From assembly GCA_020072925.1 (NCBI GenBank), contig JAIQGA010000013.1, positions 1 through 49,339 of the forward strand: a DNA stretch of 49,339 nt. Direction: 5' to 3'. Position 1 is the first letter of the stretch. Every line of letters begins with the position of its first letter. Both the position numbers and the translations under genes were made by a program. The notes under the pieces are model-generated. The model searched no databases. It worked only from the letters and a program-made list of their open reading frames with translations, and had not been told where the DNA came from. Below, piece by piece: positions 4,291 through 35,134 of the stretch. Source of the DNA: Terriglobia bacterium. Its GTDB lineage: Bacteria; Acidobacteriota; Terriglobia; UBA7540.

Positions 4291-4349
4291 CTGTAGTGGC
4301 GGTCTATGACCGCAGTCGCCCGTAGGGGCACGCCATGGCGTGCCCCTAC
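4291..4349. repeat. Two adjacent palindromic repeat modules
   Basis: Module B core GCGGTCTATGACCGC is at 4299-4313. Module A is a 28-nt perfect palindrome at 4322-4349 with half-site GTAGGGGCACGCCA. The same two modules recur close together near 10999-11074, and module A also occurs at 6585-6612. They lie between the VOC gene and the small exported protein gene. Confidence 0.85.
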
Positions 4350-5255: not shown

Positions 5256-6533
5256 TCATCCTTTCAGCGGCGAGGGGACGTTACCATCGGCATCAAAATT
5301 CGGGACGAGGGTTCTCGGGTCAAGGCGCCAGCCAGCGAGCCCCGCAGCTTCCTGCGCGAGCGCGGGAGAAATGGCGAGGCGATTCAGGTTCAGAGTGTTT
5401 TGAATCCAGGCCAGGCGCTGTTCTCCGGGTTCCGGGCTGCCCAGCGCGCCCAGGGCAAAATCCAGCGCCTCGCGGTCCGAGGGCAGGTAGATGGGCAGGC
5501 GCGGCATGGGCGGGTTCATGGATGCGCGGGCATTTGCGTACATTTTCTGGAGATCGATTTTGCGATACAGACGCTCGTGCATCACGTCGGCCATGCCGAT
5601 CCCCAGCGCATTCCCGCCGCTTTCCGGTGTTAGATTGCGAACGTAGATCAGCCCGATGGCGGGTGCTTCCCCCGGCTCAAGTTCCACGCCTCGCCCGATA
5701 ATCTTCGTGTCCATGCCCGTGCCGCTGATGTTCTTGCCCAATTCGTCCACGATGAGCAGGTGCAGTTTGGGGAAGGGAATTCGTGCCACCAGCGGCCGCG
5801 CCAGTTTCAGCATTTCTTCCTCAACCTCGGGCATGTCCTGAGCCAGCGCGGCGCGCACCGCGGCGATTTGATGACACTCATTCTCGACCACTGCCAGCCC
5901 GCCCAGAATTTTGCCGCTGGCCAGTGCGCGGCCGGCCATGGCGCGAATCGCCTTCTCGAAGCCGAATTTCCAGCTCCAGCGATGGCACTCGCGCGCGCCT
6001 TCGGCTTTGCCCATGCCGATGGCGATCATCTTCAGCAGGCCGCTCTCGATTTTTCCGGTGAAGTCCGTGTGCGGCTTCACGCGGTTAATCACCACCACGC
6101 CGTCGGACTCCCATGCGTTGCGATCGGCAAATACCTGAAAACCCTCGGGCGTAGCGCCGAGGTTCACAACATCCATCGAACAGCGGAGCTCGACTTCCAG
6201 CGCCTCAGAGGTGATGCCGTATTCCTCCAGGATTCTGCGCTGCCCTTCGGCGGTCGAACCGCCGTGACTACCCATGGCGGGAAAAACGAACGGCTTCGCG
6301 CCCTGAGCCTTCAGCCAATCGCACACCGCGCGCACAATTTCCTGCAGGCTGGCAATGCCGCGGCTGCCTACGCCCACGGCGATCAAGCGACCCTGGAGTT
6401 GGGCCGGCAACAGTTTGGTGGCCGAAAGCACCCCTTGGATTTCGCCGGCCAACTCTCGAATCGCGGGCCTACTTGGCCCGGCGCGTTCCAGGAGGTGAAA
6501 ATTCGAAAGCGCAATGTGTCCATCGCTATTCAT
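5256..6533 (-). CDS. LarA-like nickel-pincer-cofactor isomerase (DUF2088)
   Basis: A 425-residue protein from ATG 6533. An upstream in-frame ATG at 6599 sits inside a dispersed palindrome and is rejected as the start. GSHGGSTAEGQRRILEE (His about 90) matches the DUF2088 histidine region. VKPHTDFTGKIESGLLK (His about 155, Lys about 168) and RECH (His about 184) follow. The spacings resemble His108, His174, Lys184 and His200 of lactate racemase LarA, which carries a covalent nickel pincer nucleotide; Lys to His is 16 residues in both. The family racemises or epimerises 2-hydroxyacids. Cofactor genes larB, larC and larE are not in the window. Neighbouring acid-sugar genes suggest a four-carbon acid substrate. 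Confidence 0.75.
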   Translation of the reverse strand: MNSDGHIALSNFHLLERAGPSRPAIRELAGEIQGVLSATKLLPAQLQGRLIAVGVGSRGIASLQEIVRAVCDWLKAQGAKPFVFPAMGSHGGSTAEGQRRILEEYGITSEALEVELRCSMDVVNLGATPEGFQVFADRNAWESDGVVVINRVKPHTDFTGKIESGLLKMIAIGMGKAEGARECHRWSWKFGFEKAIRAMAGRALASGKILGGLAVVENECHQIAAVRAALAQDMPEVEEEMLKLARPLVARIPFPKLHLLIVDELGKNISGTGMDTKIIGRGVELEPGEAPAIGLIYVRNLTPESGGNALGIGMADVMHERLYRKIDLQKMYANARASMNPPMPRLPIYLPSDREALDFALGALGSPEPGEQRLAWIQNTLNLNRLAISPALAQEAAGLAGWRLDPRTLVPNFDADGNVPSPLKG

Positions 6534-6584
6534 GATCTTCTGCCTAACGTTAGTTCGCAGCTCGTGACTCGTCAAGCCTGACTT

Positions 6585-6652
6585 GTAGGGGTACGCCATG
6601 GCGTGCCCCTACGAGCCGAACCGTCTGCCAGGCCCCATGGCGTGCCCCTACG
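6585..6652. repeat. Palindromic repeat module A, full plus partial copy
   Basis: A full copy at 6585-6612 (one arm GTAGGGGTACGCCA, one mismatch to the perfect form) is followed by a partial copy around 6635-6652 that retains CCATGGCGTGCCCCTAC. The partial copy overlaps the last codons of the PdxA-type gene and supplies its TAG stop on the minus strand. Confidence 0.85.
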
Positions 6653-7628
6653 GGCCGGAACGTCCGCGTGACGCCATCGTCGCGGCCAACTTCATTGCCG
6701 CTTTCATGCTGGAAGGGTCGGCCTGGTTTTTGCCCGCGATGTCGAACGCCGTTCCGTGATCGACGGAGGTGCGGATGATGGGCAAGCCCAGCGTGACGTT
6801 AACCGTGTGTTCAAAATCCAGCAACTTCATCGGAATGTGGCCTTGATCGTGGTACATCGCCACGACGAGATCGAATTCGCCCCGCACGGCCTTGAAGAAC
6901 ACGGTGTCGGCAGGCAATGGACCCTGGCAGGGGATGCCTTTGGCCTGCGCGGCTTCAACCGCGGGGACGATGAAGTCGCGATCTTCGTTGCCAAACAGTC
7001 GGCTTTCGCCCGCGTGCGGATTCAAACCGCACACGGCAATGCGCGGCCGCAGGATGCCCAGGCGAAGCATGGCTTCGCGGCCCAACTCGATGGTGCGCAG
7101 AATTTTGCCAGTATCGAGTTCGCATGCTCGTCGCAGCGGGACGTGCGTGGAGACGTGTACGACCCGCAGCCGGTCATTCACCAGCAACATGCGCGGCCCT
7201 GGCACGCCGCAAAGCCCGGCGATAAATTCTGTGTGGCCCGTGAACGGCTCGCCGGAGAGCGTGATGGCCTCTTTATTCACCGGCGCGGTTACCATGGCGT
7301 CGGCCTGCCGTTCGAGGCAAAGCCGCGTGGCGGCGCGAATGTACTCCAGCGCGGCGCGTCCGCAGGTGGCGTCGACTCGACCCAGCGTGAGGTGCCACGC
7401 GTCCAGCCACTTCAGGTTGAGGACACGGGCGTTCGGTGGCAGCGGCGTCTCTGAGTGAGACGGCGGCTGGTACACATCCAGGACCGCGGCGTCTCCGACG
7501 ATGATCCAATTCGCCCGGCGCGCCACCTCGGGATCGGCCAAGGCCTTCAGGATCACTTCCGGGCCGATGCCCGCCGGATCGCCCAGCGTCACCGCGACGG
7601 TTGGAAGCGATTGGTTGGATGCGTTCAT
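6648..7628 (-). CDS. pdxA: PdxA family 4-phospho-hydroxyacid dehydrogenase (PdxA2-type by context)
   Basis: A 326-residue protein with all PdxA hallmarks: VTLGDPAGIGPEV at the N-terminus, TAPVNKEAI, FTGHTEFIAGL, the metal histidines in HVPLRR and MYHDQGHIPMK, and TSVDHGTAFDIAGK. PdxA oxidises 4-phosphohydroxy-L-threonine in vitamin B6 synthesis. The PdxA2 subgroup instead oxidises and decarboxylates D-threonate or D-erythronate 4-phosphate to DHAP. Here the gene overlaps a DUF1537 kinase by 4 bp, the arrangement known for the catabolic PdxA2 enzymes, so I favour that role. The final TAG stop lies in a dispersed repeat. Confidence 0.88.
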   Translation of the reverse strand: MNASNQSLPTVAVTLGDPAGIGPEVILKALADPEVARRANWIIVGDAAVLDVYQPPSHSETPLPPNARVLNLKWLDAWHLTLGRVDATCGRAALEYIRAATRLCLERQADAMVTAPVNKEAITLSGEPFTGHTEFIAGLCGVPGPRMLLVNDRLRVVHVSTHVPLRRACELDTGKILRTIELGREAMLRLGILRPRIAVCGLNPHAGESRLFGNEDRDFIVPAVEAAQAKGIPCQGPLPADTVFFKAVRGEFDLVVAMYHDQGHIPMKLLDFEHTVNVTLGLPIIRTSVDHGTAFDIAGKNQADPSSMKAAMKLAATMASRGRSGP

Positions 7629-8839
7629 CGAGAAACCTTCGGCTGTTGGGCAAGGAACTCAGCCATCACGTTCAGCGCGTCGCGGTCCCCGAAACTTCCG
7701 GCCTTGGTCGCGAGGGGCAAGCCCTCGGCCGGTCCGCCCGCCAGTCGCCCCCAGGGAAGGCCCGGCGCGATTTCGCGCTCGAGTCGGATTCCTCGTGCTT
7801 CCCAGGCCTCGCAGGCCATGGTCGCCGTCTCCCCGCCCGAAAGGATAACCCCTCGCACGTCGTGCTCGATAAGAACTTTCCGGCATCGCGCCAGACAGCG
7901 CCGCAGTTCGCCTTGAAAGGCGACGCGCAATATGACATGCCGGCGCTCCCGCAGGGCGCGACGAATCGGCCAGAGATTCGTCGTGGGCAGATCGAAGACA
8001 GCGCAGCGGTGAGTGACCATGAATTGAGTGAGTTGCGCGGCGGTCACAGGCGTGGTTGAGCCCACCACCAGCGCCACCAGGCCGGCCTTCGCGGCGGATT
8101 GGGCTTGGCCAAGCGGCGACGCGCGGCGTGCGTAGCGCGTGGCCAAAAGTTGTGCGACCGCTGCTGCCAAGCCCGCCGAGCCGACCATCAGGATTCTCGC
8201 CGGATAATCCTCGGCGGCTTGCGCCAGAAGCACGAGGTCTTCTTCAGTTATTGCGTCGACCGTGACCACCGTGGGCGCGGTTTTGGCCGCTTCGTCCAGG
8301 CGCGCCGTCAGGGCTCTTGCTCCGCCGATCAAGAACTGCCGGGATATGTGCGCCATGCGCTCGACGCCTTGCTCGCGCAAAAGTGTCGGAAGGTGGCCAC
8401 GCGCCATGGCGATCCCGTTGATGCGCAAGCGGCCAGCTTCCAGCGTTCGGCCTTGCGCGGGAAACGAAGGCGCGACGAGGGCGAGCGAAGCGCCGGAGGA
8501 TTCCAGCGCGGTGGCAATCTCGGCGCCCAGATTTCCACGCAGCGTCGAGTCAATCTTCTTGAAGAGGACCGCGCGCCGTTCCTTGTGTAGCGTTTCGCAA
8601 GCGTGCAGCACCTTGGCGCGCGCAGCCTCCGGCGGGTCGTTGCGGCTGTTCGTAACCATCACCGCGATCTCCGCGGCCTCCTCACCGACGCCCACCCGCA
8701 CCAACGCCGAGAAGCCGCGTTCGGCGAACTGTACGCCTGCATCACAGGCGCCGGTGAGGTCGTCAGCGATCATGCCGCACCGTACCCCTCGGTCGCTGGC
8801 ACAGGAAACATCGGGCTGCGTGCCTAAGAGCATGCACAA
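7625..8839 (-). CDS. Four-carbon acid sugar kinase (DUF1537 family)
   Basis: About 404 residues. MIADDLTGACDAGVQFAERG near residues 23-42 is the N-terminal DUF1537 motif. LFKKIDSTLRGNLGAEI follows, and the C-terminal nucleotide-binding part shows VILSGGETA and LATKAGSFGD. The family (OtnK, DtnK, LtnK) phosphorylates D-threonate, D-erythronate or related acids at O4. The product feeds the PdxA2 enzyme encoded next, with a 4-bp overlap. ATG codons at 8839 and 8833 are both possible starts; ATG 8773 would cut the first strand too short. It is the first gene of a minus-strand operon with pdxA and probably the LarA-like gene. Confidence 0.85.
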   Translation of the reverse strand: MCMLLGTQPDVSCASDRGVRCGMIADDLTGACDAGVQFAERGFSALVRVGVGEEAAEIAVMVTNSRNDPPEAARAKVLHACETLHKERRAVLFKKIDSTLRGNLGAEIATALESSGASLALVAPSFPAQGRTLEAGRLRINGIAMARGHLPTLLREQGVERMAHISRQFLIGGARALTARLDEAAKTAPTVVTVDAITEEDLVLLAQAAEDYPARILMVGSAGLAAAVAQLLATRYARRASPLGQAQSAAKAGLVALVVGSTTPVTAAQLTQFMVTHRCAVFDLPTTNLWPIRRALRERRHVILRVAFQGELRRCLARCRKVLIEHDVRGVILSGGETATMACEAWEARGIRLEREIAPGLPWGRLAGGPAEGLPLATKAGSFGDRDALNVMAEFLAQQPKVSR

Positions 8840-9205
8840 CTCCGCGCGGCCATCCGATTGCGCCGCGCTCTGAGTTTGTAGCAGACCCCGACGTGCGTCG
8901 CAAGTGGCGGCGCCTTGGAGGGCGCCAGCTTGCAGGCGCTTTACCTAAAGTGGCGGCGGTATGGAGTGCAGGAGTCCAGCAAGCACTGCTTGACCTTGCT
9001 CCCGCTCTTTCTTCTGCCGAAGCTTGGTTCGGCAGAGACAACGGCGGCCCCGTCCCTGCCGGGGCCGGGACGAGCCGCCGCAGTCCGAAACACTCCCGAG
9101 GATTGCGCGGCAGAACGTTTTCGTTTACAGTCCCCGTACGCTTGGCGCTGGTGAAGTACAATCCAAGGTGACAGGCGGAGATTCAGTCGGCTAGGAGAGT
9201 GACCT
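8840..9205. other. 366-bp divergent intergenic region with repeats and hairpins
   Basis: No convincing gene. It separates the DUF1537 kinase (minus) from the ACT protein (plus) and should hold both promoters, though I see no clear -35/-10 pair. Two imperfect direct repeats begin with AAGTGGCGGCG at 8902 and 8948. A perfect 9-bp hairpin lies at 9013-9036 (arms TCTGCCGAA and TTCGGCAGA), followed by a larger GC-rich stem-loop at 9042-9080 with arms CGGCGGC / GCCGCCG outside and CGTCCC / GGGACG inside. Confidence 0.6.
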
Positions 9206-9598
9206 GTGGCGCTGACCAAGCAGCTTACCGTGATGTTGGAGAACCGGCGCGGCGCGCTGGCGGAACTGTGCTCGAAGTTGGCGGAAAAGGCCGTGAATAT
9301 CCTCGGGCTGATGGTGCCGGACCAGCCGGGCGTCGCACCCATCCGCCTGGCCGTTGACAGCCACGACGCGGCAAAAAAGGTGCTCGATGCCATGGGCGTC
9401 AAGTACATTGAGGAAGACGTCGTCGCGGTAAGTGTCTCGGACCGCCCCGGGGCACTGGGAAAACTGACGCGCAAACTCGCCGACCATAATCTCGACGTGA
9501 AATACTGCTACGGCAGCATCGTGAAAGGCGTGGGGAAGGCCACGATAGTCCTTGCGGTGTCGGATGTGCAGGCCGCGGCGAAGCTGCTGAAGTGAGTC
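9206..9598 (+). CDS. Tandem ACT-domain protein
   Basis: A 129-residue protein started at GTG 9206 with AGGAGAG upstream (9193-9199). Two ACT domains fill it: residues 5-65 (LTVMLENRRGALAELCSKLA) and 73-127 (VSVSDRPGALGKLTRKLAD). ACT pairs bind amino acids or other small ligands and usually regulate metabolic enzymes. With no catalytic domain, this is a stand-alone sensor or an acetohydroxyacid-synthase-like regulatory subunit. It has no operon partner in the window. Confidence 0.85.
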
Positions 9599-9977
9599 GG
9601 GAGCGGGAACTCCGCGGACACTCCCTGACCTTGCTTTTGCTATCGTTGCAGCGCAGATATCACTGACCTTCGGTCCACTACCCTTGACAAAAGAAGGCTG
9701 GATTCCCGCCTGCTCGGGAATGACCGCGCGGGGGCGATGCTGCCATCAGTATTTGGCGGCAACTGTCCGCCAGAGGCGGCGGCGAGGGCGCGCGCTCACC
9801 ACGAGCCTCCATACGTATGTTGCGTCGTGCACCCTCGCGCGGCGCGGCGATGTTCTCTGTTTTCCCACACTTGGCCCGACCTTGCGTAGCACACCTTCCG
9901 TGCAACAAATGCCCAACCACTCGACTCGATCCTGGTAACCGGCATGCTTCTCTCCGGATTGCAGGAGGGACACGTCT
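9599..9977. other. 379-bp intergenic region with a REP-like repeat
   Basis: No gene supported. It contains an inverted-repeat element at 9697-9726 (GGCTGGATTCCCGC ... GGGAATGACC) which reappears in the opposite orientation at 11132-11157. The end carries the GGAGG ribosome site of the following membrane protein gene. The rest shows nothing I can name. Confidence 0.6.
9697..9726 (+). repeat. REP-like inverted repeat
   Basis: The element GGCTGGATTCCCGCC...GGGAATGACC forms a short hairpin and resembles the widespread dRS3-type family with a TTCCCGC...GCGGGAA core. An inverted copy is at 11132-11157. Confidence 0.7.
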
Positions 9978-10955
9978 GTGCAGAAGACAACTTGGATCCG
10001 AATGGGAATCACCTTGGGCGCTGCAGGGGTTCTGGCGTGGCGGCTGCCTCCGGTGCGGCTGATTGCGGAGTTTCGCCAGCTTGATGTGATGCAACTGCTC
10101 CCCGCGGCCTCTTGCGTCCTGGCGATGCTGGCGGTGCGCGCCTACAAATGGCACGCCTTGCTCAGCCATGGCGAGCCGGGCGCGCGCGCCGAGGATTCGC
10201 TTCGTTCGCTTCTGGGGGGCTTTGCGCTCGCCCTGGCGATCCCTGGCCGCTTAGGCGAATTCGGGCGTTGCCTGTTCACGCCGCCGGGCCAGCGGCATCG
10301 CGCCCTTCTGTTGAACGCCCTCGATCGCTTGCTGGACATGTGGGCGCTACTCACGGTCGGCGTCGCCAGCCTCTTCGTAGTGGTGCGATTCCCCGCGGCG
10401 ATTTTTGGCGTGGGCGTGTGGCTGGCAGCGATGCCTTTGCTGGTGGGATTGCCCGCGCTGCTGGCGACATTCGTTAACCTTCCGCCCTGGCCAGAGGGCC
10501 TGCGCGCGCGCCTCGCCGCGGCCACTTCTCAAATCGTCGCCATGCGCGTTCGACGCTTTGCGGTGCTCTCTGTGGCCTCGACGGCGCTTGACCTGATGCT
10601 CTTCTATTTCCTCCTGCGGGCCTTTTATCCCGTCGGATTCGACGCGGCGCTGGCGACTTTTCCCTGGATTGTGATTGCAGGCGGGCTGCCTCTTTCGATC
10701 AACGGCTTCGGAGTGCGCGAAGGCGTGGCGGCGCTGCTGCTCGCGCGCTATGGCCTGTCGCCTGCCGCGGCGGCGGATGTGGGGTTGCTGCTCTTTACCT
10801 TCAGTTGCTTACTGCCGGCCGTTGCGGGCGGCATTTGGCTTTTGGCCAGCGGCTCGTCGGCTCATGGCCAATGGCCGAGCGAACTGGAAACAATCGGCAA
10901 AGGTATCTGGAATTCGCTGCGCCCGGCTGCCACGCGGCCCGCCAACGCGCTGTAG
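9978..10955 (+). CDS. Flippase-like (LPG synthase TM / UPF0104) membrane protein
   Basis: A 325-residue integral membrane protein started at GTG 9978 with GGAGG at 9964-9968. Hydrophobic segments cover most of the length (about 7-8 helices). The conserved polar stretches RAYKWHALL and LALAIPGRLGEFGRCLF, then GLPLSINGFGVREG, are typical of the lysylphosphatidylglycerol synthase transmembrane / AglD-like family. Members lacking the synthase domain are thought to move lipids or lipid-linked sugars across the membrane; no catalytic domain is attached here. The TAG stop comes from the edge of a dispersed repeat starting at 10950. Confidence 0.8.
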   Translation: MQKTTWIRMGITLGAAGVLAWRLPPVRLIAEFRQLDVMQLLPAASCVLAMLAVRAYKWHALLSHGEPGARAEDSLRSLLGGFALALAIPGRLGEFGRCLFTPPGQRHRALLLNALDRLLDMWALLTVGVASLFVVVRFPAAIFGVGVWLAAMPLLVGLPALLATFVNLPPWPEGLRARLAAATSQIVAMRVRRFAVLSVASTALDLMLFYFLLRAFYPVGFDAALATFPWIVIAGGLPLSINGFGVREGVAALLLARYGLSPAAAADVGLLLFTFSCLLPAVAGGIWLLASGSSAHGQWPSELETIGKGIWNSLRPAATRPANAL

Positions 10956-11075
10956 CGGCGATGTCCTCATCGCCGCCCGCCGCAAGCGGCGAATGCCAGT
11001 AAGGGCACGCCATGGCGTGCCCCTACGAGCGATGGGGACACCGCCGCTACAGGGTTTCGGCGGTCATAGACCGCC
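10950..11075. repeat. Composite nested inverted-repeat element
   Basis: Arms of 24 nt at 10950-10973 and 11029-11052 pair with 2 mismatches. Between them lies palindrome module A (10999-11026, half-site like GTAAGGGCACGCCA), and immediately after is module B (core 11060-11074). The left arm overlaps the end of the flippase-like gene and supplies its stop codon. Confidence 0.8.
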
Positions 11076-11131
11076 GCACAGTTGCAGGTCTGCAATCCTC
11101 AATCGAAAATCATCAATGCGCAATCATCACC

Positions 11132-11157
11132 GGTCATCCCCGCGAAAGCGGGGAGCC
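11132..11157 (-). repeat. REP-like inverted repeat, inverted copy
   Basis: GGTCATCCCCGCGAAAGCGG continues to GGGAGCC. This is the reverse-complement relative of the element at 9697-9726. It sits 12 bp from the 3' end of the DUF4091 gene and could act as a transcript-end hairpin. Confidence 0.7.
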
Positions 11158-11168
11158 ACTCTACAAGG

Positions 11169-12863
11169 CTATTTCGACAAAGCTTCGAGTAACTGGCTCT
11201 CGATTCTCCGGAACGGCTCGGGCGTGCGCACATATTCTGTCAGAGATGTAATCGCAGCCTTGGCCAGCCCGTCGGCCTCGGCGGGATTCTTCTTGTGCAA
11301 GGCCCGCAGCATCTCATAGTCCTCGATGCCGGCTCGCATGGTTTCCAGCCGAACCGAGCTGAACACGGACTTGCGCGCGCGGTCGGGATAAACGATGAAG
11401 GCGTCTCCGGAGGGGAGCAACTCCGTATTATCGTCAATCACCGGCTGCGTATCGTTCATGGGTTCGGGCGACCAGTAATTCCAGCCCCAGTGGAGGTATC
11501 CGGTTAAGTTATAACGGAAATTGAGCCAGTGCAGCAGGCGGACTTTCAAGAGCGGATAATCCATCAGCCGGTTCAAGTACCGGCCGTTGGGAAACAGGCA
11601 GGTGTAAAACCACACGGGGTGCCCCGACTGAATCCTTTCCTCGATCAAATTCATCTGATCGTCGAATCGCCCCAGGAGAGGCACCCACACATCGCAGTTC
11701 TTGCGCAATTCCGTGGGCATGTGCGCGGCGTCCACGGCGTCCATGGTGGGAACGCCCGGCAGGCAGCGATAAACGATTTCCGCGAAGCGCGCGTAATAGG
11801 GCGGCTCCTCGCCGTGCGCTTCATCCAGGATGTGCTGGAAGTAAATGGACTTCCATTTCTTCTCTTCCAGGTGGGCGTTGAGCGCCGTGAGGAATACGGT
11901 GAGGAAGTGCGCGACGCGCGGGTCGTCCGGCGACACGGTCAGCCCGCGCGCCTTTCCATCCTCGATCACCACGATGTCAGTTTCCAGCCCGGCGTCGTAA
12001 CTTCCCGCCCGGCCCAGCAGGTGGCTGCCCTCGATGTAACCGATGACGCCCGCGCGCTGGAAAGTCTCCACCCAGCGGTCGAAGTTTGAAAAATCGTAGG
12101 CAAGCTCGTCCTGTACCACTTGTGGCTTGATCAGGTTCATCAAGGGCGTGATCACCATGTTCTGGCGGTGGTCGGCCATGACCCGCGCCACGTTCTCGAC
12201 CAGTGTCCACCACTCGGGAGAGAACTGCTCGAGGCCATAGAATTGCTTGGAAGCCTTTGCGCCCAGCGTGAACCAGTTGGTGACCGTCAGGGAGCGCGCG
12301 CTGGGCACGACGGCGGCAAGCACTTTGACGCGGAAGCGGCGCTGCGCCAGAACGCGGTCGCCCTCCTTGACCACTATCGTTCCGTCATACCTGCCGGGCA
12401 CCGCTTCCGCCGGCACCGCGACCGTTACCCAGAGGGTCTGCGTCCGCCGCGCCGGAACGTCCACGGGAAAATCCAAAAGCGGGTCCGGGTACCAACCGGG
12501 CGTCTCGCCAATCAATTCCTCCGGCGGGGTATCCTTGGTATGCGACCCCACCACCACGTAGCCCACGGGGTGAACCGTCACGCTACGGATAACGCCTTGC
12601 TTCAATCCCTTGAGCGGCTCGACTACCGCTGACACGCCCTTGAGCGGGCGAGCCGAACGCAGCGCCAGTTGAATCGCCACATGCTGATTGCGCGCCGCCG
12701 GAATTTCCGGGATCGATTGCCCGGTTTCCCTCGCCATGTCCGCAGGGAAGACCTTCGTCAGGGAATCCACAAACCAGGTCTCAACGCCCGATGAATCCGC
12801 GCCGCTCGCGAGGGTGCACAACAGGAAACCTGCAAACCCGGTCAAAAGAACTCGACGAAACAT
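11169..12863 (-). CDS. DUF4091 / GH123-like exported protein
   Basis: About 564 residues from ATG 12863, chosen because GGGGG lies 7 nt upstream and the frame then begins with a signal peptide (FRRVLLTGFAGFLLCTLAS). In-frame upstream ATGs exist at 12878 and 12905. An N-terminal beta-sandwich region (about 20-190) precedes a TIM-barrel-like part. YFQHILDEAHGEEPPYYARF has the Asp-Glu pair expected in GH123-type N-acetylgalactosaminidases that use substrate assistance. YLHWGWNYW and RLETMRAGIEDYEMLRALHK mark the DUF4091 C-terminal region. Substrate not determinable; an extracellular glycan is likely. Confidence 0.8.
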   Translation of the reverse strand: MFRRVLLTGFAGFLLCTLASGADSSGVETWFVDSLTKVFPADMARETGQSIPEIPAARNQHVAIQLALRSARPLKGVSAVVEPLKGLKQGVIRSVTVHPVGYVVVGSHTKDTPPEELIGETPGWYPDPLLDFPVDVPARRTQTLWVTVAVPAEAVPGRYDGTIVVKEGDRVLAQRRFRVKVLAAVVPSARSLTVTNWFTLGAKASKQFYGLEQFSPEWWTLVENVARVMADHRQNMVITPLMNLIKPQVVQDELAYDFSNFDRWVETFQRAGVIGYIEGSHLLGRAGSYDAGLETDIVVIEDGKARGLTVSPDDPRVAHFLTVFLTALNAHLEEKKWKSIYFQHILDEAHGEEPPYYARFAEIVYRCLPGVPTMDAVDAAHMPTELRKNCDVWVPLLGRFDDQMNLIEERIQSGHPVWFYTCLFPNGRYLNRLMDYPLLKVRLLHWLNFRYNLTGYLHWGWNYWSPEPMNDTQPVIDDNTELLPSGDAFIVYPDRARKSVFSSVRLETMRAGIEDYEMLRALHKKNPAEADGLAKAAITSLTEYVRTPEPFRRIESQLLEALSK

Positions 12864-12958
12864 TGTTGCCCCCTTCATCGCCACGTTTCCGCGGAACGTC
12901 ACCATCGCTGATTCGCCTTCATACTTGAAATCCGCTGGGACTTCGCTTTGGTGAACAT

Positions 12959-12981
12959 GAGACGCCCCTTCGGGGCGTCTC
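12959..12981. repeat. 10-bp hairpin with TTC loop
   Basis: GAGACGCCCC and GGGGCGTCTC form a perfect stem around a TTC loop. On the minus strand it is headed by GTAG, like other repeats in the window. It lies between the DUF4091 start and the methyltransferase stop. No U-tract follows, so a terminator role is unproven. Confidence 0.7.
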
Positions 12982-13131
12982 TACTCCTCGCGAGGGAAAC
13001 GAGTGCGCGGATGGTAAAGCACGGGGCGAGGGAATGCAAGCAGAAGGCAGAACCTCACTCCCAGAGTCACGAACAGGGGGGCGAGGAACTGTCAATCGTT
13101 GACTGTCGGCAGTGAACCGCTTTTGCTGATT

Positions 13132-13812
13132 TCAATGCGTGAAGATGAGGAAATACTGATAGGCTAGAAACCTGTATTCCTTGAGGAGGTGGAACCCCGC
13201 AGGCTCAGCTTCCGCGATCATTTTCTTCTTGGCAATCGTCATTTCGAGGGGTGGGCCGAGGGGGAGAGGCCGCTTGTGGAAATCGATGTTGACGAACCGC
13301 CCGCCGGGCTTGAGCGCCCGCGCCAGCATCGGGAAATACTCCTGGCGATCCGCGATGTGGTGCAGCGTATCGCAGAAGAAGATGAGATCGACAGAGCCGG
13401 CCGGCAGCTTGGGATCATGCGGGTCGGCGCGGACCGGGATGACGTTGTCGAGGTGTTCCTGCTCCGCTCGGCGACGGATATATTCGAGCATGCCGGGATC
13501 GATGTCCACGGCATACACCTTGCCCGTTGGTCCCACGGCGCGGGCAAAGCGCACAGTGAAGTAGCCCGAACCCGCGCCAATGTCGGCCACGGTTTCGCCG
13601 GGCTTCAGGCCCAGCGTCCGCAGCACGCGCTCCGGCTGCTGCCACTTGTCGCGGCCGGGATCTTCCAGGGCCTTGATATACGCTTTTGTGGATTCAGGGG
13701 GATGATGCTGGTGTTCGACCTGCGCCGCGGACGTGAGGACGAACCCGGGGAAGAGGGCGATGAGAAGAAGCGCCCAAGCTCTGGAAAGACTACGGAAGGT
13801 ATTGCACGCCAT
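13132..13812 (-). CDS. Class I SAM-dependent methyltransferase with signal peptide
   Basis: A 226-residue protein. Residues 1-30 look like a cleavable signal (AWALLLIALFPGFVLTSAAQ). Next come motif I VADIGAGSGYFTVRFA (about 75-90), the acidic residue in VYAVDIDPGMLEY, and VDLIFFCDTLHHIADR (motif IV region). The Rossmann methyltransferase fold is clear. The exported start is odd because SAM is cytosolic; it may be a membrane anchor or the protein may use SAM differently. The 5' end overlaps the upstream PilZ gene by 23 bp. Confidence 0.8.
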   Translation of the reverse strand: MACNTFRSLSRAWALLLIALFPGFVLTSAAQVEHQHHPPESTKAYIKALEDPGRDKWQQPERVLRTLGLKPGETVADIGAGSGYFTVRFARAVGPTGKVYAVDIDPGMLEYIRRRAEQEHLDNVIPVRADPHDPKLPAGSVDLIFFCDTLHHIADRQEYFPMLARALKPGGRFVNIDFHKRPLPLGPPLEMTIAKKKMIAEAEPAGFHLLKEYRFLAYQYFLIFTH

Positions 13813-14629
13813 AGAATCGGCCCGTGGTCCCCTCGGCAGCCCAGACGATCGTACCTTCGGTCTCGACGGGCGCCTGGTATTCCGCGAAGGGCAGCGTCAT
13901 GAAAACCTTATCGCCGACCTGAAAGCGCTGTGTGCTCACAAAACACAGACCGGACTTGGACACGTCGCGGGTCTGAGCAATGTCGACGACTCCCCAGGCG
14001 CTGCGCACGCGCAACCGCATCACCAGTTTCAGACGGCGCACCTTGCGCTTGTCCTGGCCGGGGGCGGGCGTCATGGGCTTTCCGGCGGCAATCATTTCCG
14101 CCGTGAGCGGCTGGTCGCTGGGCTTCCAGCGCGTGGTTTCGTTGCAGCGCTCGCAATGGCGGGAGATCAGCCCCGCGGCCAGGAGCACGTCATACTCGAT
14201 GCTGGAAAGCGTGGTTTGCGCGGCGCGCTTGCACGCGGCGCATTCGATCAGGACCTTCGGCTGTAGGCCTTCGGCCGGGGGCACGAATGCGACACCCCAA
14301 ATCCCACTATCCTGGTTGAGGGCTTCGACGCCCCACTCGCGGCGTGAGCCCGAGGGCTGAAAGCCGCCCACCACGCGGAATTCCTCTTCGATGCCGTTGT
14401 CCAGATTCTTGACGAGCACGATGTCGTCGGGCAGAAGCGAGTGGCTCAAGCTGATGCGCGCGCCCTGCTGGTTGAAGCTGACGGTGATGGTTTCCTCGCC
14501 GAAGGCAACGCCGTGGGCGTCATTCCCGATGACGCGGATGCGGACAGGAGCTGCGATGCGATCACTACGGCGTCGGGTCGGAATCGCAGTTTCCATGGCC
14601 AGTTCGCAAGAAGCCCGTGCGACCGCCAC
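13790..14629 (-). CDS. PilZ protein with two PilZ-like domains and a CxxC...CxxC insert
   Basis: A 279-residue protein from GTG 14629, supported by GAAGGA 4 nt upstream (ATG 14596 is the alternative). Residues about 18-110 form one PilZ-like beta-barrel starting with RRRSDRIA. CAACK (about 128) and CERC (about 159) form a likely zinc-binding insert. A second PilZ module (about 195-279) begins KVRRLKLVMRLRVR and contains TRDVSKSGLCFVS. PilZ domains bind cyclic di-GMP through RxxxR and [DN]xSxxG; the second module has DVSKSG but a less clear RxxxR. Likely a c-di-GMP-responsive or degenerate regulatory protein. Confidence 0.75.
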   Translation of the reverse strand: MAVARASCELAMETAIPTRRRSDRIAAPVRIRVIGNDAHGVAFGEETITVSFNQQGARISLSHSLLPDDIVLVKNLDNGIEEEFRVVGGFQPSGSRREWGVEALNQDSGIWGVAFVPPAEGLQPKVLIECAACKRAAQTTLSSIEYDVLLAAGLISRHCERCNETTRWKPSDQPLTAEMIAAGKPMTPAPGQDKRKVRRLKLVMRLRVRSAWGVVDIAQTRDVSKSGLCFVSTQRFQVGDKVFMTLPFAEYQAPVETEGTIVWAAEGTTGRFYGVQYLP

Positions 14630-14913
14630 TGGTTCCTTCTCACCGAGGCCCAGGAACTGTCCAGCTCGGCCGGTTTCTTATCGGAGGAAGGTCAGGCTCG
14701 CAGACGCGGCGCTGCGTCTTGTGCTACTTTGCCTTCTCACGCGTTGCCGCTTCTGCCGAGGCTTGGAAGGTAATCTATTCCGGGCGGCAAGTCAACCCTG
14801 AGGCCTCGGCGCGAACCTCGTTGCAATCTATGCTGATCGCGCCGCTCTCTGGGCCGTGGGCCCTCAACGGGTTTAGCGGCGCGGCACAAATCAGGTCCGG
14901 CGGAGAAAGGGCC

Positions 14914-15327
14914 TCAAGCTTCCGGAGTCGCGGCGGGTTTCTTCTTTGCCTTCGACTCACGCGGCGCACCCGAGTCCGCAGCGGGCGCCTTATCCAACTC
15001 CTTGAGCGCTGTCTCTTCGTCGTTCGCAATCACGAAGAACTGCGCCAGCTTGACGTCGTCGAGGATGCGGCGGACGTGGGGATTGATTTCGGTAAGGACC
15101 ATCTGCGCGCCGGCATGTTCGACCGTTACACGAGCTCCCGCCAGAAAGCCGAGCCCCGTGGAGTCGATGTAAGGCACCTCGCCGAAATTCAGCACCAGCT
15201 TGCGAGTGCCGGCTTCGATGAGCTCTGCCACCTTCTGCCGCAGGTACGGACCATCGCCTCCTGCCAGGAACCTCCCGGACAGGCTGACGATGGCGACATT
15301 ATCCTTGAATCGCACGGCAATTCTCAC
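14914..15327 (-). CDS. STAS-domain anti-anti-sigma factor-like protein
   Basis: A 137-residue protein. Residues 1-105 are a STAS domain: VAIVSLSGRFLAGGDGPYLR, then LVLNFGEVPYIDSTGLGFLA with the conserved phosphorylatable serine in DSTG. The last 30 residues are a charged Ala/Lys/Pro tail with no predicted fold. SpoIIAA/RsbV-type proteins bind anti-sigma kinases and are switched off by serine phosphorylation. No kinase or sigma factor gene is adjacent, so the partner is encoded elsewhere. Confidence 0.88.
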   Translation of the reverse strand: MRIAVRFKDNVAIVSLSGRFLAGGDGPYLRQKVAELIEAGTRKLVLNFGEVPYIDSTGLGFLAGARVTVEHAGAQMVLTEINPHVRRILDDVKLAQFFVIANDEETALKELDKAPAADSGAPRESKAKKKPAATPEA

Positions 15328-15559
15328 GATCCCACCTCACTGCCAGGGATGCCTGCTGATGTAACGTGCGCGCTTACTGACGAGCCGCCCGCGGGGCGGC
15401 GCCCCCAAGATGCTTTTCCGATTCCAGGCCGGAGCCCGCGATATCGGGTGGATAGTCATCCTACGAAAGGCCTGGAAGTGTTGTCAAGTCACCCGGCATA
15501 ACTATCGAAGAACACGCGGGAATTCGCGCCGGGTCTCTGGCAGGAAGTGCCGCGAGGGA

Positions 15560-16093
15560 TCAAGCGGCCCGAGTATCGGCCTGCCACGCGGGGATTACGA
15601 GGAGTTTCATCTCACATTCGTTGTCGAGACTGCTGGTAATTCGGAACCCCATTTTCTGATACAAGCCCAGAGCGGCCTTGTTCGAGAGTTCTGTACTAAT
15701 ATATAGTTCTGCGAAGCCCGCCTGCCGGGCCCACTCGACCGCCAAGCGCGAAAGCGCCGTCCCCACTCCCTGGCGTCGAAAGTCCTGGTGAATGAAGATT
15801 GTGTACTCGACCGACGCCTCCGAAATGGGGCAAAGAATGGCGTGCGCCACGACACGCTCGCCCTCCACGGCCATTAGCGCGCGCGCCTTGTCATGCAGTC
15901 GCGCCAGCCAGTGGGCAATGCGGCGAAGTTCCCTGGGCGGCAGGCCTTGGGCTACTCCCTTAGGCTCGAAGCTCTTGTACATTTGGACCAAGGCTCCAAA
16001 GTCCGCCAGTTCGGATTTTCGGACCGTGAAGTCGCGGCCCCCGATACTGCGAATCGGCACCGGAATGAAGGGCGTCTCGAAATCGTCTGACAT
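15560..16093 (-). CDS. GNAT family N-acetyltransferase
   Basis: A 177-residue protein from ATG 16093. The frame is open further upstream (to 16372), but that extension has no family character. The acetyl-CoA site reads HQDFRRQGVGTALSRLAVEWA (GNAT motif A, RRQGVG), followed by ELYISTELSNKAALGLYQKM (motif B). GNAT enzymes acetylate amines of small molecules or proteins; the acceptor is unknown. No signal peptide. The gene stands alone. Confidence 0.87.
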   Translation of the reverse strand: MSDDFETPFIPVPIRSIGGRDFTVRKSELADFGALVQMYKSFEPKGVAQGLPPRELRRIAHWLARLHDKARALMAVEGERVVAHAILCPISEASVEYTIFIHQDFRRQGVGTALSRLAVEWARQAGFAELYISTELSNKAALGLYQKMGFRITSSLDNECEMKLLVIPAWQADTRAA

Positions 16094-16414
16094 AGCAGGC
16101 CCATCATTTTGAGGGCACGATAATTGCCAAGCGCGTCGATGCCCTTTCGTCGTTGGACGAGCGGAAAAACGACATTGCGTCCGCTCTGGCGGCCGTTTTG
16201 TCCGTGACCAGCCCGCTTCAGGGCGCTTCGCCAGACAATTCAGCGCAGATTGAGCGAAATGCCACACCCTAACGCCAGGCTCAATGCCGCTCGACCCGAG
16301 GCATGCCGGTCCCCCCAACCGCGAACCCAGGTTTGGCACGTTCATCTTCACTGAACGATCCATACATCGCAATTCCCTTCGGAAATGCCGCAGGTCCGAA
16401 AAGCCGGACCTGCG
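16094..16414. other. 321-bp intergenic region
   Basis: No gene supported. It holds the upstream region of the acetyltransferase gene (minus) and the 3' flank of the ceramidase-like gene (minus), including the hairpin at 16390-16413. I see no clear promoter motif. Confidence 0.5.
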
Positions 16415-16416
16415 CT
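16390..16416 (-). repeat. GTAG-headed hairpin at the ceramidase-like gene end
   Basis: A perfect 9-bp stem (GCAGGTCCG at 16390-16398 and CGGACCTGC at 16405-16413) sits directly at the end of the ceramidase-like gene. On the minus strand the repeat begins GTAGCGCAGGTCC and its TAG is the stop codon. It could also reduce read-through. Confidence 0.7.
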
Positions 16417-17866
16417 ACTTACCCTCAATTAGGTTCACCAGCCCGTGCGTGACGGCGCCGGCGATGTCTGGCCCGGCGGAATTGATTTCGCCGTACCAGC
16501 GGTTCTTCCTGTTCAGGAGCCAAGGCGGCTGGTCGTCCCACTCGGCTTTCGGAATGATGTAGCCCAGCTCGTCGTTCGCGAGGCCAAAGATGAACTGATA
16601 TCGGCTCTTCAGGTGTTCGCGAATCGCGGGCTCGAACGGCGCGTCGGGGAAGTCCGCGCCCGGAAAGCGCGTGACGCCACCGTTCACCAGCTCGGGATAA
16701 ATCTCGCCGGGCACCGTGGCGATTTCCGCGACGATCTTCCCTTGGCTCCGAAACGCCACGTAATCCAATTCCGTTTGCACGTCCTGGCCGGTGGCGTATT
16801 TCAGTTTTCCGTACCCCGGGAATTCCTTCTCAGCGATCGTGGCAACGGGTTTGTCGTCCGTGAAGAGCGATTTGCGACCCTTGTATATTCCGAAAGCGCC
16901 GCCCACGCGGAAGTGGTCGTTGTGCATAGGCGGATAGACCACCGCTTTGCGGATGACCACGGAATCCGGCTCGACAACTTCGCCGCTCTTCAGCGCTCGT
17001 TCTACAAGCATGCCCAAGGCATTCCCGACCAACTCCGCCTTGCGCCAGGTATCGTCCCGAGCCACTTCGCCGGTCTCGGGGTCTTGCAGCGCCACGTCAT
17101 TGCCGAGCGTGGAGAGCAGGCCGCCAATCGAGCCATTGAAGAACACCGCCGTACCGCCTCCGTGATCTTCCACGTACTGGCAGAGCCAGTGCGGATAATC
17201 GGCGGTGATCTCGGTGTTTTTGCCGCCGAGGGTTTCGGGATGGTCGCTCCAGTTGATGAGCGTGGCGATGGGCGCGCCGCCTGGGGCATCGAGGCGCATT
17301 ACAAACAAGTACGGGTCTTTCACGTAAGGCGGGCGGCCATCGGATTGGAGCAGGGCCAGCAGTGGATGGTCGTCGCGCGCCAGGGTGAGGCGCGCGTTCT
17401 GCATGGCGTGGATGGCCTGCGCCGCGGTCGTCGCGATGCGCTCGTCGAGCCAGTCCATGTAGTGCTCGTCCATGCCCGATTGGAATGGCGTCGGCCCCCA
17501 GAGGCCCATGGTGTCCGGCCCCTCGTGGACGTGCGTTGAGGCGACGATCAGGTGCGCAAGTTCCGGCGCCTGCGCTTTCACTTTCTCGCGAATCTTCAGC
17601 ACATCGTCATAGAAGAGCCCAATCAAGTCCACGGAGCACATGGCGAGCGTCTGCTGGCCTACGCCCAGTGCCAGGCAGCGCACGTAGAGATCATCATGAA
17701 CGCCCGTCGCGACGCGGTTGTTGCCAAAGCCCGCCATGTAGACGCTGCCGGCCTTCACGTCCGGCGTGATCGCCGCCTTGGCGGCGCCGGCGCGGAGGTC
17801 CGCCCCCATGGCGCTCGTTGCACTCCAAAGTAAGAACAGCAGAATTCCGATCAGGCGCTTTTTCAT
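16415..17866 (-). CDS. Neutral/alkaline ceramidase-like exported hydrolase
   Basis: A 483-residue protein from ATG 17866, where a signal peptide begins (KKRLIGILLFLLWSATSAMG) with GGAG about 10 nt upstream. DLRAGAAKAAITPDV and VDLIGLFYDDV fit the N-terminal domain of neutral/alkaline non-lysosomal ceramidases. STHVHEGPDTMGLWG holds the histidine/glycine-rich zinc-site region. True ceramidases run 650-700 residues with a C-terminal Ig-like domain that is absent here, so this is the shorter ceramidase-like family common in soil bacteria. The substrate is likely an external amide or ester, not necessarily a sphingolipid. Confidence 0.8.
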   Translation of the reverse strand: MKKRLIGILLFLLWSATSAMGADLRAGAAKAAITPDVKAGSVYMAGFGNNRVATGVHDDLYVRCLALGVGQQTLAMCSVDLIGLFYDDVLKIREKVKAQAPELAHLIVASTHVHEGPDTMGLWGPTPFQSGMDEHYMDWLDERIATTAAQAIHAMQNARLTLARDDHPLLALLQSDGRPPYVKDPYLFVMRLDAPGGAPIATLINWSDHPETLGGKNTEITADYPHWLCQYVEDHGGGTAVFFNGSIGGLLSTLGNDVALQDPETGEVARDDTWRKAELVGNALGMLVERALKSGEVVEPDSVVIRKAVVYPPMHNDHFRVGGAFGIYKGRKSLFTDDKPVATIAEKEFPGYGKLKYATGQDVQTELDYVAFRSQGKIVAEIATVPGEIYPELVNGGVTRFPGADFPDAPFEPAIREHLKSRYQFIFGLANDELGYIIPKAEWDDQPPWLLNRKNRWYGEINSAGPDIAGAVTHGLVNLIEGK

Positions 17867-18120
17867 GGGTGTTTTGCTCCTTCGAGGTCGAAGAAATATG
17901 CCCCCAATTTGGGTGCTTTTGGCCGGGGTAATGGGTAGATCTCCTGCCACCCGATCCCAAGGGATGGGATTGGCATCGACATGGATTTTTCCTCATGTGA
18001 GCCAGGGCGCGATTGCGGTACAATGCACCCGCTGACCTTGGCACCCGGCCAATGCCCAGCAGGGTTAGTGGTCGAGGTGCGGGCCGACCAGACTCCAGGT
18101 GATCGTCCGGGAGGTGGAAC

Positions 18121-32387: not shown

Positions 32388-33633
32388 ATGGCCACGAAGG
32401 CTTTCCAGAAGCCCTGGTCCGCCCGGCGAAGAATGCTTCGCGCCGTCTTCCTCAGCGTGGTGGGAATGTTGGGATGGTTGTCGCCCGCGCCCCTCGCCGC
32501 ACAATCGAATGTGCGCCTGCTTCTCGAGAGCGGTTGGGGTGTGCCAGGTCATAGCGGATTTGTTTTTGGCCCGTTCTCGGGCCTGGCGATGAACGCGCGC
32601 CGGGAAATTGTTTTCCTGACGGCGATGCACAGCGCGCGCAGCGATATCCCCGCGGTGATCCGTTCGGACGGTGTGAGTTTTTCAGTGGTGGCGTTTCAAT
32701 GGGTTGCGCTCGCCGGTGGCGAAGACCCAATACGATTCCTTCAGCGCGCCGAGCATCAACGACGCCGGCACCATCGCCTTCACCGCCACACTCCACGATC
32801 ACGAAGAGAGTCCGACCTCAGCCGTATTTCGCAGCGATGGCCAAAATGCCACGGCAATTGCCAACAACGCGGACGACGTGCCGGGCATGCCGGGGACGAA
32901 GTTCCAGGAATTTTCCGCCCCGCTCATCAATTCACAGGGAAACATTCTCTTTGCGGCGCGCTGGGAAGGGAAGCGGCCGGGGACAGGACTTTTCCTGTGG
33001 TCGCCGACGGGATTGCAGGCTCTCGACCTTCCGTCCGGTCTGAAAATCCCTCACAAGGAACTGTTGGTCCCGATTTTTTTCAGCCACGATGAGGCGATGT
33101 TCGTAATTCGCGGCACGCCACAAGATGTGGCGATTGAGCAGTTTTTCCGCGCCGTGGCAGTCCGCACCCTTCAGGAAACGACGCCGCCACCCGACCCCGC
33201 GGCGAGCGCGCAAATCCTCCCACCGGCGCCCGGGGAGAAACCCATCCAAATGGTCTTGGTGCTGGCCGAGGCGGGAAATATCCAGACCGTGCTTTTGCCG
33301 GGAGATCCCACTCAGCCGGTCATGATCAAGCATGCGGCGGGGTCACCGGAGGTAAAGTCGCTGGGACGCATGGAAGGTCAAACCACCGGCGACCGGGGCA
33401 ACATCATTTTTGCCGCCACCCTGGCGGACCAGGCCAACGACCTCGCGTTGTATTGTCTCTGCCAGGAGCAGTTGATTCGGGAGACTACGCCGGAGGAATT
33501 CCAGCCGATCACCCTGGCCGCGCCCGGAAAGCCCATCCTCTCGCTGGCCAGCGACTCCCAACAAACCGTGGCGTTCATCGCGCCCGGCGCCGCGGGAGAC
33601 GCCTCGGCTATTTACGTGGCAACGGTGCCGTGA
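32388..33633 (+). pseudogene. NxxGxxAF-repeat exported protein, frameshifted
   Basis: Two overlapping frames form one protein of about 415 residues. Frame one (from ATG 32388) gives the signal peptide (ending SPAPLAAQ) and the first strands up to about 32697. The frame then shifts, and the second frame continues from about 32700 to the TGA at 33631-33633. Repeats INDAGTIAF, INSQGNILF and DRGNIIFAA fit the tandem NxxGxxAF beta-propeller-like family of exported proteins. No homopolymer longer than GGG lies at the junction, so a true mutation and an assembly error are both possible. Function unknown. Confidence 0.7.
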
Positions 33634-33736
33634 AAAGAAGTTAACAGTTGACAGTCGACAGTTGACAGTCAAAACCAGCCTCCTCGTTATGGTCTTTACT
33701 GTCGACTGTGAACTGTTGACTGTCGACTTCTTTTCA
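33631..33736. repeat. Long imperfect inverted repeat at convergent gene ends
   Basis: Arms of 39 nt (33631-33669 and 33698-33736) pair at 32 of 39 positions around a 28-nt loop. Each arm begins TGAAAAGAAG when read from its own gene, and these TGA triplets are the stop codons of both convergent genes. The arms contain repeated GACAGT-type units. Likely a bidirectional transcript-end hairpin. Confidence 0.8.
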
Positions 33737-35134
33737 CACCTCCAACTTCCACGGCGCGCGATATTCCCGGGTGAGGAGTTTGTTGGCTTCCGGCGCGCCT
33801 TTGATCAGCCGCTGGTTTGCGACATCCCACTCCAGTCGCGCGTTGCTTCGCAGGGCGACATTGCCCAGCAGGCACGTGCTGCTCGACCGGTGCCCGATCT
33901 CGATGTCGCTGGTCGGGCGCTTGCGGGATTTCATACACTCAAGCATATTGCCGACGTGCTTGAGGAGTCCGTCGTCAACGCGATCCATCTGCATGGTGGG
34001 CGCGGCATCGACGTTCTTGGGGTGGCGGGGCTTCGTGCGCGGCGCGCCGGGATTGACCGCCGTGCCTTCCCGGATTTCTTCCAGCGGCCGCTTCTCGGGA
34101 AACACCTGAAATCCTTCGCGGTCCAGGAACATAGTGCCGTCCGTGCCGTGAAATTCGATCCCGTAATCGTGCCCGTACATGGAATTCTCGTTGCACAGGC
34201 GGTTTTCGTACGTGGCCACAAAATCGCCGTACTCGTAGGTGAGATAAAGAGTGTCGGGAGTATCGCTGTTGTCCTGGAGATAGAACTTCCTGCCCAGGGC
34301 GGTGATCGCCTTCGGCCCGTCAACCTTCATTGCCCACTGCACGATATCCATGAGGTGAACCTCCCAGTCGCCGGGCCAGCCGTTGGCGTAATCGTAAAAG
34401 TAGCGGAACGTCGACCAGCGGTCGCCCACGCCAAAGCGGTTCCAATTGAAGGCATGATGAGGCGCCGGCCCCAGCCACATGTCCCAATCGAGCCCCGGCG
34501 GGACCTCGGTGTCCGGAGGATTGCCGATCCCTTCCGGGTAGATGTTCGAATAATTCCAGGTGCGGCAGAGGGTGATCTTGCCCAGGAGCCCTTCCTGCAC
34601 AATCTGCACGGCTTTCTGGAAGTGCAGGTTGGAGCGCTGCCAGGTTCCCACCTGGACAACCCGGTTGTGTTTGCGAGCGGCTTCAACCATCTTCTTGCCT
34701 TCGTCCACCGCTACGCAGATGGGTTTCTCCACATACACATCCTTGCCCGCCTGGCACGCCATGACCATAGCCAAGGGATGCCAGTGGTCGGGCGTGGCCA
34801 CAATCACCACGTCGATATCCTTGTTGTCCAGGACCTTGCGGAAGTCCGAATAACTCTCGGCCTTTTCACCTCCCGGCTTTCCGCGCGCAACGCCCAGACA
34901 CTTGTCCAGGCTGGGTTGGTAAACGTCGCAGACGGCCAGCACCTCCACGCCGTGCGCCATGAAGTTTTCCATGTTGTCGGTGCCCTGACGGCCAGTGCCG
35001 ATCACGCCCAGGTGGATGCGATCGTTGGCCCCCAGCACGCTACGGGTGCTCAGGCCCGATACGGTGACACTGACTGCGGCGCTGGTCATCGCCGCGCGCT
35101 TGAAGAAGTCCCGTCGATTCAATTCCTCAGTCAT
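33734..35134 (-). CDS. Tat-exported Gfo/Idh/MocA oxidoreductase
   Basis: A 466-residue protein. NRRDFFKRAAMTSAAVSVTV at the N-terminus is a twin-arginine signal. A Rossmann domain follows (LGVIGTGRQGTDNME, about 42-56), then ATPDHWHPLAMVMACQAGKD and VYVEKPI with the catalytic-site Lys of the EKP motif. The C-terminal half is the usual alpha/beta dimerisation domain. Such exported members, common in Acidobacteriota, Planctomycetes and Bacteroidota, probably oxidise sugars with a tightly bound NAD(P). Substrate unknown. Confidence 0.92.
   Translation of the reverse strand: MTEELNRRDFFKRAAMTSAAVSVTVSGLSTRSVLGANDRIHLGVIGTGRQGTDNMENFMAHGVEVLAVCDVYQPSLDKCLGVARGKPGGEKAESYSDFRKVLDNKDIDVVIVATPDHWHPLAMVMACQAGKDVYVEKPICVAVDEGKKMVEAARKHNRVVQVGTWQRSNLHFQKAVQIVQEGLLGKITLCRTWNYSNIYPEGIGNPPDTEVPPGLDWDMWLGPAPHHAFNWNRFGVGDRWSTFRYFYDYANGWPGDWEVHLMDIVQWAMKVDGPKAITALGRKFYLQDNSDTPDTLYLTYEYGDFVATYENRLCNENSMYGHDYGIEFHGTDGTMFLDREGFQVFPEKRPLEEIREGTAVNPGAPRTKPRHPKNVDAAPTMQMDRVDDGLLKHVGNMLECMKSRKRPTSDIEIGHRSSSTCLLGNVALRSNARLEWDVANQRLIKGAPEANKLLTREYRAPWKLEV

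Follow-up and report, generated by a model that had tools for sequence, protein, structure and literature searches.

In a 49,339-nt stretch of DNA from a Terriglobia bacterium (contig JAIQGA010000013.1; the whole stretch is referred to below as the window), the stop codon of three genes is the TAG of a repeat that starts with GTAG: at 6648-6650 on the minus strand, at 10953-10955 on the plus strand and at 16415-16417 on the minus strand. The repeats are repetitive extragenic palindromes (REPs) of the GTAG type, and they belong to three families (classes A, B and C). With high confidence we regard them as non-autonomous elements spread by REP-associated tyrosine transposases (RAYTs, or TnpA-REP) of the same genome; the TAG of a copy becomes the stop codon of a gene when the copy lands in frame at the gene's last codons. 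Both the phenomenon and the repeat class are known; what is new is the instance in this organism. The three genes, the repeats that stop them and an intact class A copy nearby are:

6648..7628, minus strand: host gene 1, PdxA (PF04166, E 1.2e-102)
6635..6651, minus strand: class A half-element GTAGGGGCACGCCATGG; its TAG at 6648-6650 is the PdxA stop
6585..6612, no strand: class A REP, a palindrome of the "double foot" type with one mismatch, GTAGGGGTACGCCATGGCGTGCCCCTAC
9978..10955, plus strand: host gene 2, LPG_synthase_TM (flippase-like; PF03706, E 2.4e-22)
10950..10976, plus strand: class B REP, head at 10952; its TAG at 10953-10955, after codon CTG, is the LPG_synthase_TM stop
16415..17950, minus strand: host gene 3, a 511-aa protein, family unassigned, with homologues in other Acidobacteriota
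16389..16418, minus strand: class C REP GTAG-CGCAGGTCCGGCTTTTCGGACCTGCG, head at 16418; the 511-aa gene is stopped by its TAG at 16415-16417

An earlier note on this DNA had described all three stops as the TAG of a GTAG repeat followed by a hairpin. The TAG was confirmed in every case, the hairpin in two of them. When each candidate hairpin was compared with 200 shuffles, the sequences at 10950-10980 (-12.6 kcal/mol, z -5.9) and 16387-16418 (-13.4 kcal/mol, z -5.4) were equalled by none of the shuffles, whereas the copy at the PdxA stop (6631-6653, minus strand) did not fold (z +0.56), being a half copy in which GTAGGGGCACGCCATGG is followed by other bases. A palindrome able to fold as single-stranded DNA is thus present in the copies at 10950, 16387 and 6585 and absent from the half copy at 6635-6651; the intact class A palindrome at 6585-6612 starts 35 nt past the PdxA stop.

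The frequency of GTAG-headed hairpins was determined in a sample of the host genome (G000; 456 contigs, 6.5 Mb in all), which consisted of 80 randomly drawn contigs, at most the first 20 kb of each, and the window (997,626 bases, 15.4% of the genome). Genes were called with a simple hexamer-score caller (own script), whose starts are unreliable, and its stops alone were used. As had been suggested in the earlier note, GTAG was strongly enriched at hairpin edges: it was found at 37 of the 148 intergenic edges (1.6 expected), the highest count among the 256 tetranucleotides, with 17 for the runner-up. Counted the other way, GTAG was again the highest of the 256 heads, a hairpin following 53 of its 3,874 occurrences (13.7 per 1000; the median head had 2.6). 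Most of these GTAG hairpins (43 of 53) lay outside called genes, and applying a footprint rule gave 41 extragenic GTAG hairpins for the comparison with gene ends.

Five of the 41 had their TAG as the stop of a called gene, whereas extragenic positions drawn at random did so at a rate of 0.22% (p = 4e-8); a gene on contig L132 has a stop overlap of this kind. Because the sample includes the window, the stop-overlap figures were also derived without it, and 3 of 34 remained (p = 6e-5 against random positions). Ten of the 41 started at a distance of 1-20 nt (in fact 3-16 nt) past a stop, against 4.0% of random positions (p = 4e-6), and without the window this number was 10 of 34. Taken together, 15 of the 41 lay within 0-20 nt of a stop, which bears out the proposal that the elements sit at or near gene ends. 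Convergent gaps held 10 of the 30 classified GTAG hairpin sites but only 9% of intergenic bases. At the extragenic edges of other hairpins no stop overlap was found (0 of 108), and 5 of the 108 fell at a distance of 1-20 nt. GTAG repeats are thus enriched at gene ends. The exact coincidence with the stop codon, however, is no commoner than GTAG itself would yield, as 90 of the 687 extragenic GTAGs without a hairpin (13%) overlapped a stop too (Fisher p = 1.0 against the hairpin GTAGs). The predicted enrichment at stop codons therefore holds against random positions and fails against other extragenic GTAGs, and these counts do not demonstrate targeting of the stop codon.

The three heads have distinct stem families, and the reading of all copies as one family was dropped. 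What the earlier note had taken for a family of small elements are repeat elements indeed, but of at least three families. Of the class A head GTAGGGGCACGCC the genome holds 69 copies, compared with 0 for the reversed control, and in 25 copies both arms are exact. Among these 69 heads three have their TAG as a stop, five lie 1-20 nt past a stop and 15 are within called genes. In 30 related genomes the class A head was present in seven (1-12 copies each; reversed control 0-4). The difference between 69 copies here and 0-12 in the relatives suggests that class A was probably amplified in this lineage. Class B (pattern GTAGCGGCGATG) has 11 heads, two at a stop, one at a distance of 1-20 nt and two in genes, and CT precedes GTAG in all nine copies outside genes. 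Class C (pattern GTAGCGCAGGTC) also has 11 heads, compared with 3 in the reversed control, one of them at a stop and one at a distance of 1-20 nt.

A transposase of the kind that serves REP systems, for which the earlier note had recommended a search, is encoded in the same genome. PF01797 gave 11 matches and NF047646 gave 12, of which 7 were above the cut-off, one of these with an internal stop codon; the NF047646 cut-off was passed by five of five RAYTs scanned. The RAYT L002 aligned with E. coli TnpA-REP (PDB 4er8) over residues 1-158 (E 6.5e-16). GTAG hairpins adjoin three of the seven RAYTs, on both sides of L254 (C104) and L257 (C310) and, for L248, on the only side that the contig shows. 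At L254 and L257 the hairpins are forward before the RAYT and inverted after it, the layout of a REPtron, and they follow the class C plan (GTAGCGC, a stem and a 6-8-nt loop). The intact RAYT L002/L257 itself has the TAG of its downstream REP as its stop. In five genomes 23 RAYTs were above the cut-off, and in four of the 22 with a readable end the stop is a G-TAG with a palindrome behind it; the hairpin rule was passed only by that of L257, those of L251, L259 and L263 being judged by eye.

Class A, too, has a RAYT beside it, a broken one. The gene at L191:1247-1959 (G000:C229) is flanked by class A REPs and contains one as well, and its stop is the TAG of a further class A copy. It is read in two frames, and the shift falls in the stretch that holds the internal class A-like copy. 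The RAYTs of two relatives, L275:544-1155 (minus strand) and L255:669-1241 (plus strand), contain REP copies, each of the gene's own family, that lie in frame behind the HuH motif; that of L275 encodes VGAGLRPAPT. The HuH and Y..NP motifs were found in one frame in 22 of the 31 RAYT loci inspected, and the distance from HuH to Y was 55-56 residues in 19 of these 22, 73 in one, 85 in L275 and 99 in L255. For RAYTs with internal REPs, tblastn gave nothing but distant matches (at most 34% identity) among plasmids (4 records) and among phages (1 record); a scan of viral_contigs proteins gave no match, and none of the 11 matches of a DNA pattern scan was a RAYT. The inverted repeats that flank the RAYTs L005 and L011 (GGCTGGCGCAGACCCC...) lack a GTAG head, and in this the two resemble published TIRYT genes.

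What a repeat does to the protein was judged by comparing homologue ends for six host genes (duplicates of one contig were counted once). For PdxA, 9 of 10 homologues end within 6 residues and one ends 17 later; the nearest homologue, that of G016 (68% identical), stops one residue before, at a G-TAG without a GTAG-headed hairpin. The 511-aa protein, which the earlier note had called ceramidase-like, matched no family of Pfam or NCBIfam at E 0.001; a limit of E 0.1 brought up YjbE alone, under its cut-off, and the label is thus unsupported. Its named homologues at 65-73% identity come from metagenome-assembled genomes of Acidobacteria/Terriglobia, and the host is very likely an acidobacterium that has not been cultured, probably a soil organism. 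The end codon is the same in 9 of the 19 distinct homologues with a readable end, the rest ending 42 residues earlier to 20 later, and in 9 of the 11 that are at least 59% identical. These same-codon homologues stop with TAG (5), TGA (3) or TAA (1), with no hairpin arm longer than 5 bp.

Outside the window, the L204 gene (a Cys/Met PLP enzyme, matched by its profile to the end) is stopped by a class A TAG. Nine of its 10 homologues have the same end codon (TGA in five, TAG in two, TAA in two), again with no hairpin arm longer than 5 bp, and the tenth ends 16 residues later. For the sugar kinase gene of L103 the four closest homologues are 4-5 residues longer and the others 5-51. The D-Ala-D-Ala carboxypeptidase gene of L071, stopped by a class B TAG, shows no clear shift (homologues -4 to +17). 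In most decidable cases the repeat has thus taken over the stop at or near a pre-existing gene end, either by replacing the stop or by settling on an existing TAG. In L214 (G008:C420), a homologue of the L071 gene has a G-TAG stop too, and behind it stands a 7-bp hairpin with a different sequence (GGGAGCATC...GGTGCTCCC); the end of this gene may have been reached by REPs twice.

Taking these observations together, we infer that the copies were mobilised by RAYT and that selection has kept them at gene ends. If the RAYT of this genome behaves like other members whose biochemistry has been published, it would recognise GTAG and the hairpin on single-stranded DNA, cleave near the hairpin and join the piece elsewhere. 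Copies would persist mainly just past genes, where they presumably do least harm. One that landed at the last codons with GTAG in frame would turn its TAG into the amber stop of the gene, and the protein, then ending at its old end or a few residues from it, would be tolerated. In published work, GTAG is the sequence that TnpA-REP recognises, and cleavage takes place near the hairpin at CT or, in one case, at CA as well (PMC8266576); the CT in front of the class B heads fits such cleavage. In E. coli, REPs near a stop can reduce translation (PMC12306157).

Several points weigh against this explanation. Transposition was not observed, and there was no same-genus strain among the genomes compared, hence no clean empty site at the DNA level. 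A count over the whole genome gave 11 matches each for the class B pattern GTAGCGGCGATG and for its reversed control, so that the case for class B is made by its hairpins and by the CT in front of GTAG. Six of the 11 matches of the class C pattern are inside genes, and a simple class C hairpin, judged by eye, is present in two of the 11 (L063 and L057). The end of LPG_synthase_TM is not conserved, varying from -11 to +32 residues among the four homologues with a readable end. Four of the seven RAYTs of this genome (L261, L264, L268 and L272) showed no adjoining GTAG hairpin, and no RAYT with class B repeats at its flanks came to light. The class A RAYT L191 is broken, its pieces scoring 23.4 and 44.7 bits where the NF047646 cut-off is 80, and its intact relative L275 is also under the cut-off (62 against 80 bits).

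The same data can be read as insertion targeted to stops: the transposase would prefer TAG or GTAG at gene ends, the TAG would be older than the repeat and the hairpin would have been added behind it. Some repeat-free homologues do have TAG at this place, or beside it, already, as seen in the G-TAG of the G016 PdxA and in the homologues of the 511-aa protein, where one of the five TAG stops is G-TAG, and the overlap of 5 in 41 is far above that of random positions. This reading was dropped as the main one because hairpin GTAGs overlap stops no oftener than other extragenic GTAGs (90 of 687). The mixed stops of the same-codon L204 homologues and the CT that precedes GTAG in nine of nine class B copies, which makes CT-GTAG seem part of the element, also speak against an older TAG, and the L103 kinase is shorter than its closest homologues, in line with untargeted insertion. 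We consider the reading improbable as a whole, and its core, that the transposase directs new copies to the very stop codon, with TAG or GTAG at the gene end as its target, a little more so. Were it true, new copies would land where the host gene stays intact, a harm-avoiding rule of insertion.

It is very unlikely that the three overlaps are a meaningless coincidence of a common stop and a common tetranucleotide. TAG accounts for 248 of the 807 called stops in the sample, and the equal overlap of GTAGs with and without a hairpin is what coincidence would give; the hairpin behind GTAG, however, is non-random (37 edges where 1.6 were expected) and class A is a repeat family, by which chance is refuted for the repeats themselves. 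That the hairpins are intrinsic transcription terminators arisen in place, sharing GTAG by accident, or "evolve as transcript ends" as the earlier note had put it, is scarcely credible: they are stable and stand at gene 3' ends, but none of the three repeats, which have no T-run after the hairpin and so are not terminator-like, is among the 15 terminator-like sites between 4000 and 18000 (shuffles 14.3), hairpins without GTAG never overlap a stop (see above), and 25 class A copies have both arms exact.

Further repeats of the window are:

4322..4349, no strand: class A REP, perfect 28-bp palindrome
10950..11052, plus strand: composite of an inverted pair of class B REPs (CTGTAGCGGCGATG... and ...CACCGCCGCTACAG), resembling a REP doublet forming a hairpin (REPIN) or bacterial interspersed mosaic element (BIME)
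10999..11026, no strand: class A REP with one end GTAA, nested within the class B composite
12959..12984, minus strand: fourth GTAG family, GTAGAGACGCCCC-GAA-GGGGCGTCTC, no stop overlap

The two inverted class B REPs fold into one long hairpin (10950-11054; -41.9 kcal/mol, z -7.6), and in 10950-11052 one REP family, as the class A palindrome, lies inside the REPIN-like unit of another. The copy at 12959-12984 is related to another double-foot family, GTAGAGACGCCCCGGCGGGGCGTCTCTAC, several copies of which occur in the sample contigs (e.g. L132:6514 and L078:13571). Two abutting 39-nt stretches at 6596-6673, 79% alike and composed of a class A part and sequence resembling the PdxA 3' end, are perhaps a small tandem duplication. 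The ATG at 6597-6599 that opens the open reading frame (ORF) 5256-6599 (minus strand) sits within the class A palindrome 6585-6612, and the true start of this ORF may be elsewhere. An inverted repeat at 33630-33737 (48-nt arms, 81% complementary, AACAGTTGACAGTCGACAGT type) is unlike the REPs. No Rfam family matched anywhere in the window at gathering scores.

The case of this probable soil acidobacterium shows how REPs come to hold the stops of ordinary genes, and by the homologue comparisons the protein end changes little. Its practical bearing is chiefly a caution for annotation: a repeat may hold the end of a gene or, as with ORF 5256-6599, its start.

By the definition reportedly given by Bertels and Rainey in 2011, a REPIN/BIME is formed by a pair of REPs in inverted orientation, folding into a single hairpin. 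The unit at 10950-11052 is like this, and unlike it in having class A, another REP family, nested in its middle. The L002 RAYT protein resembles E. coli TnpA-REP (4er8), whereas REP sequence and host differ. A literature text search for short sequence strings gave, among the matches listed, hits to the shortest string only, and these were chance-like. According to Di Nocera et al. (2013, PMC3733652), GTAG REPs often supply TAG stops. Their reported hosts include the Planctomycetes-Verrucomicrobia group as well as other phyla, and TIRYTs, RAYT-like genes with other flanking inverted repeats, are reported in Acidobacteria. The repeats described here resemble those GTAG REPs in the GTAG followed by a palindrome, the mostly intergenic location near gene 3' ends and the frequent inverted pairs; they differ in their host, probably an uncultured acidobacterium, and the families are likened by description, not by consensus sequence. 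The RAYT/REPtron described by Nunvar et al. (2010, PMC2817692) shares the inverted GTAG REPs that flank the RAYT and the REP at or just past the RAYT stop, but phylum and stem sequences differ. The double-foot REP type, in-frame REP insertions and the subclass 2.4 TnpA-REP are from Quentin et al. (2018, PMC6006769). In keeping with that paper, the two ends of class A are GTAG and CTAC, and REPs lie inside the RAYT gene, in frame in L275 and L255 and with a frame shift in L191, although the splitting of L191 into two frames sets the class A RAYT apart. By description rather than by the authors' profile, the layout of the L191, L275 and L255 RAYTs matches that account of subclass 2.4.

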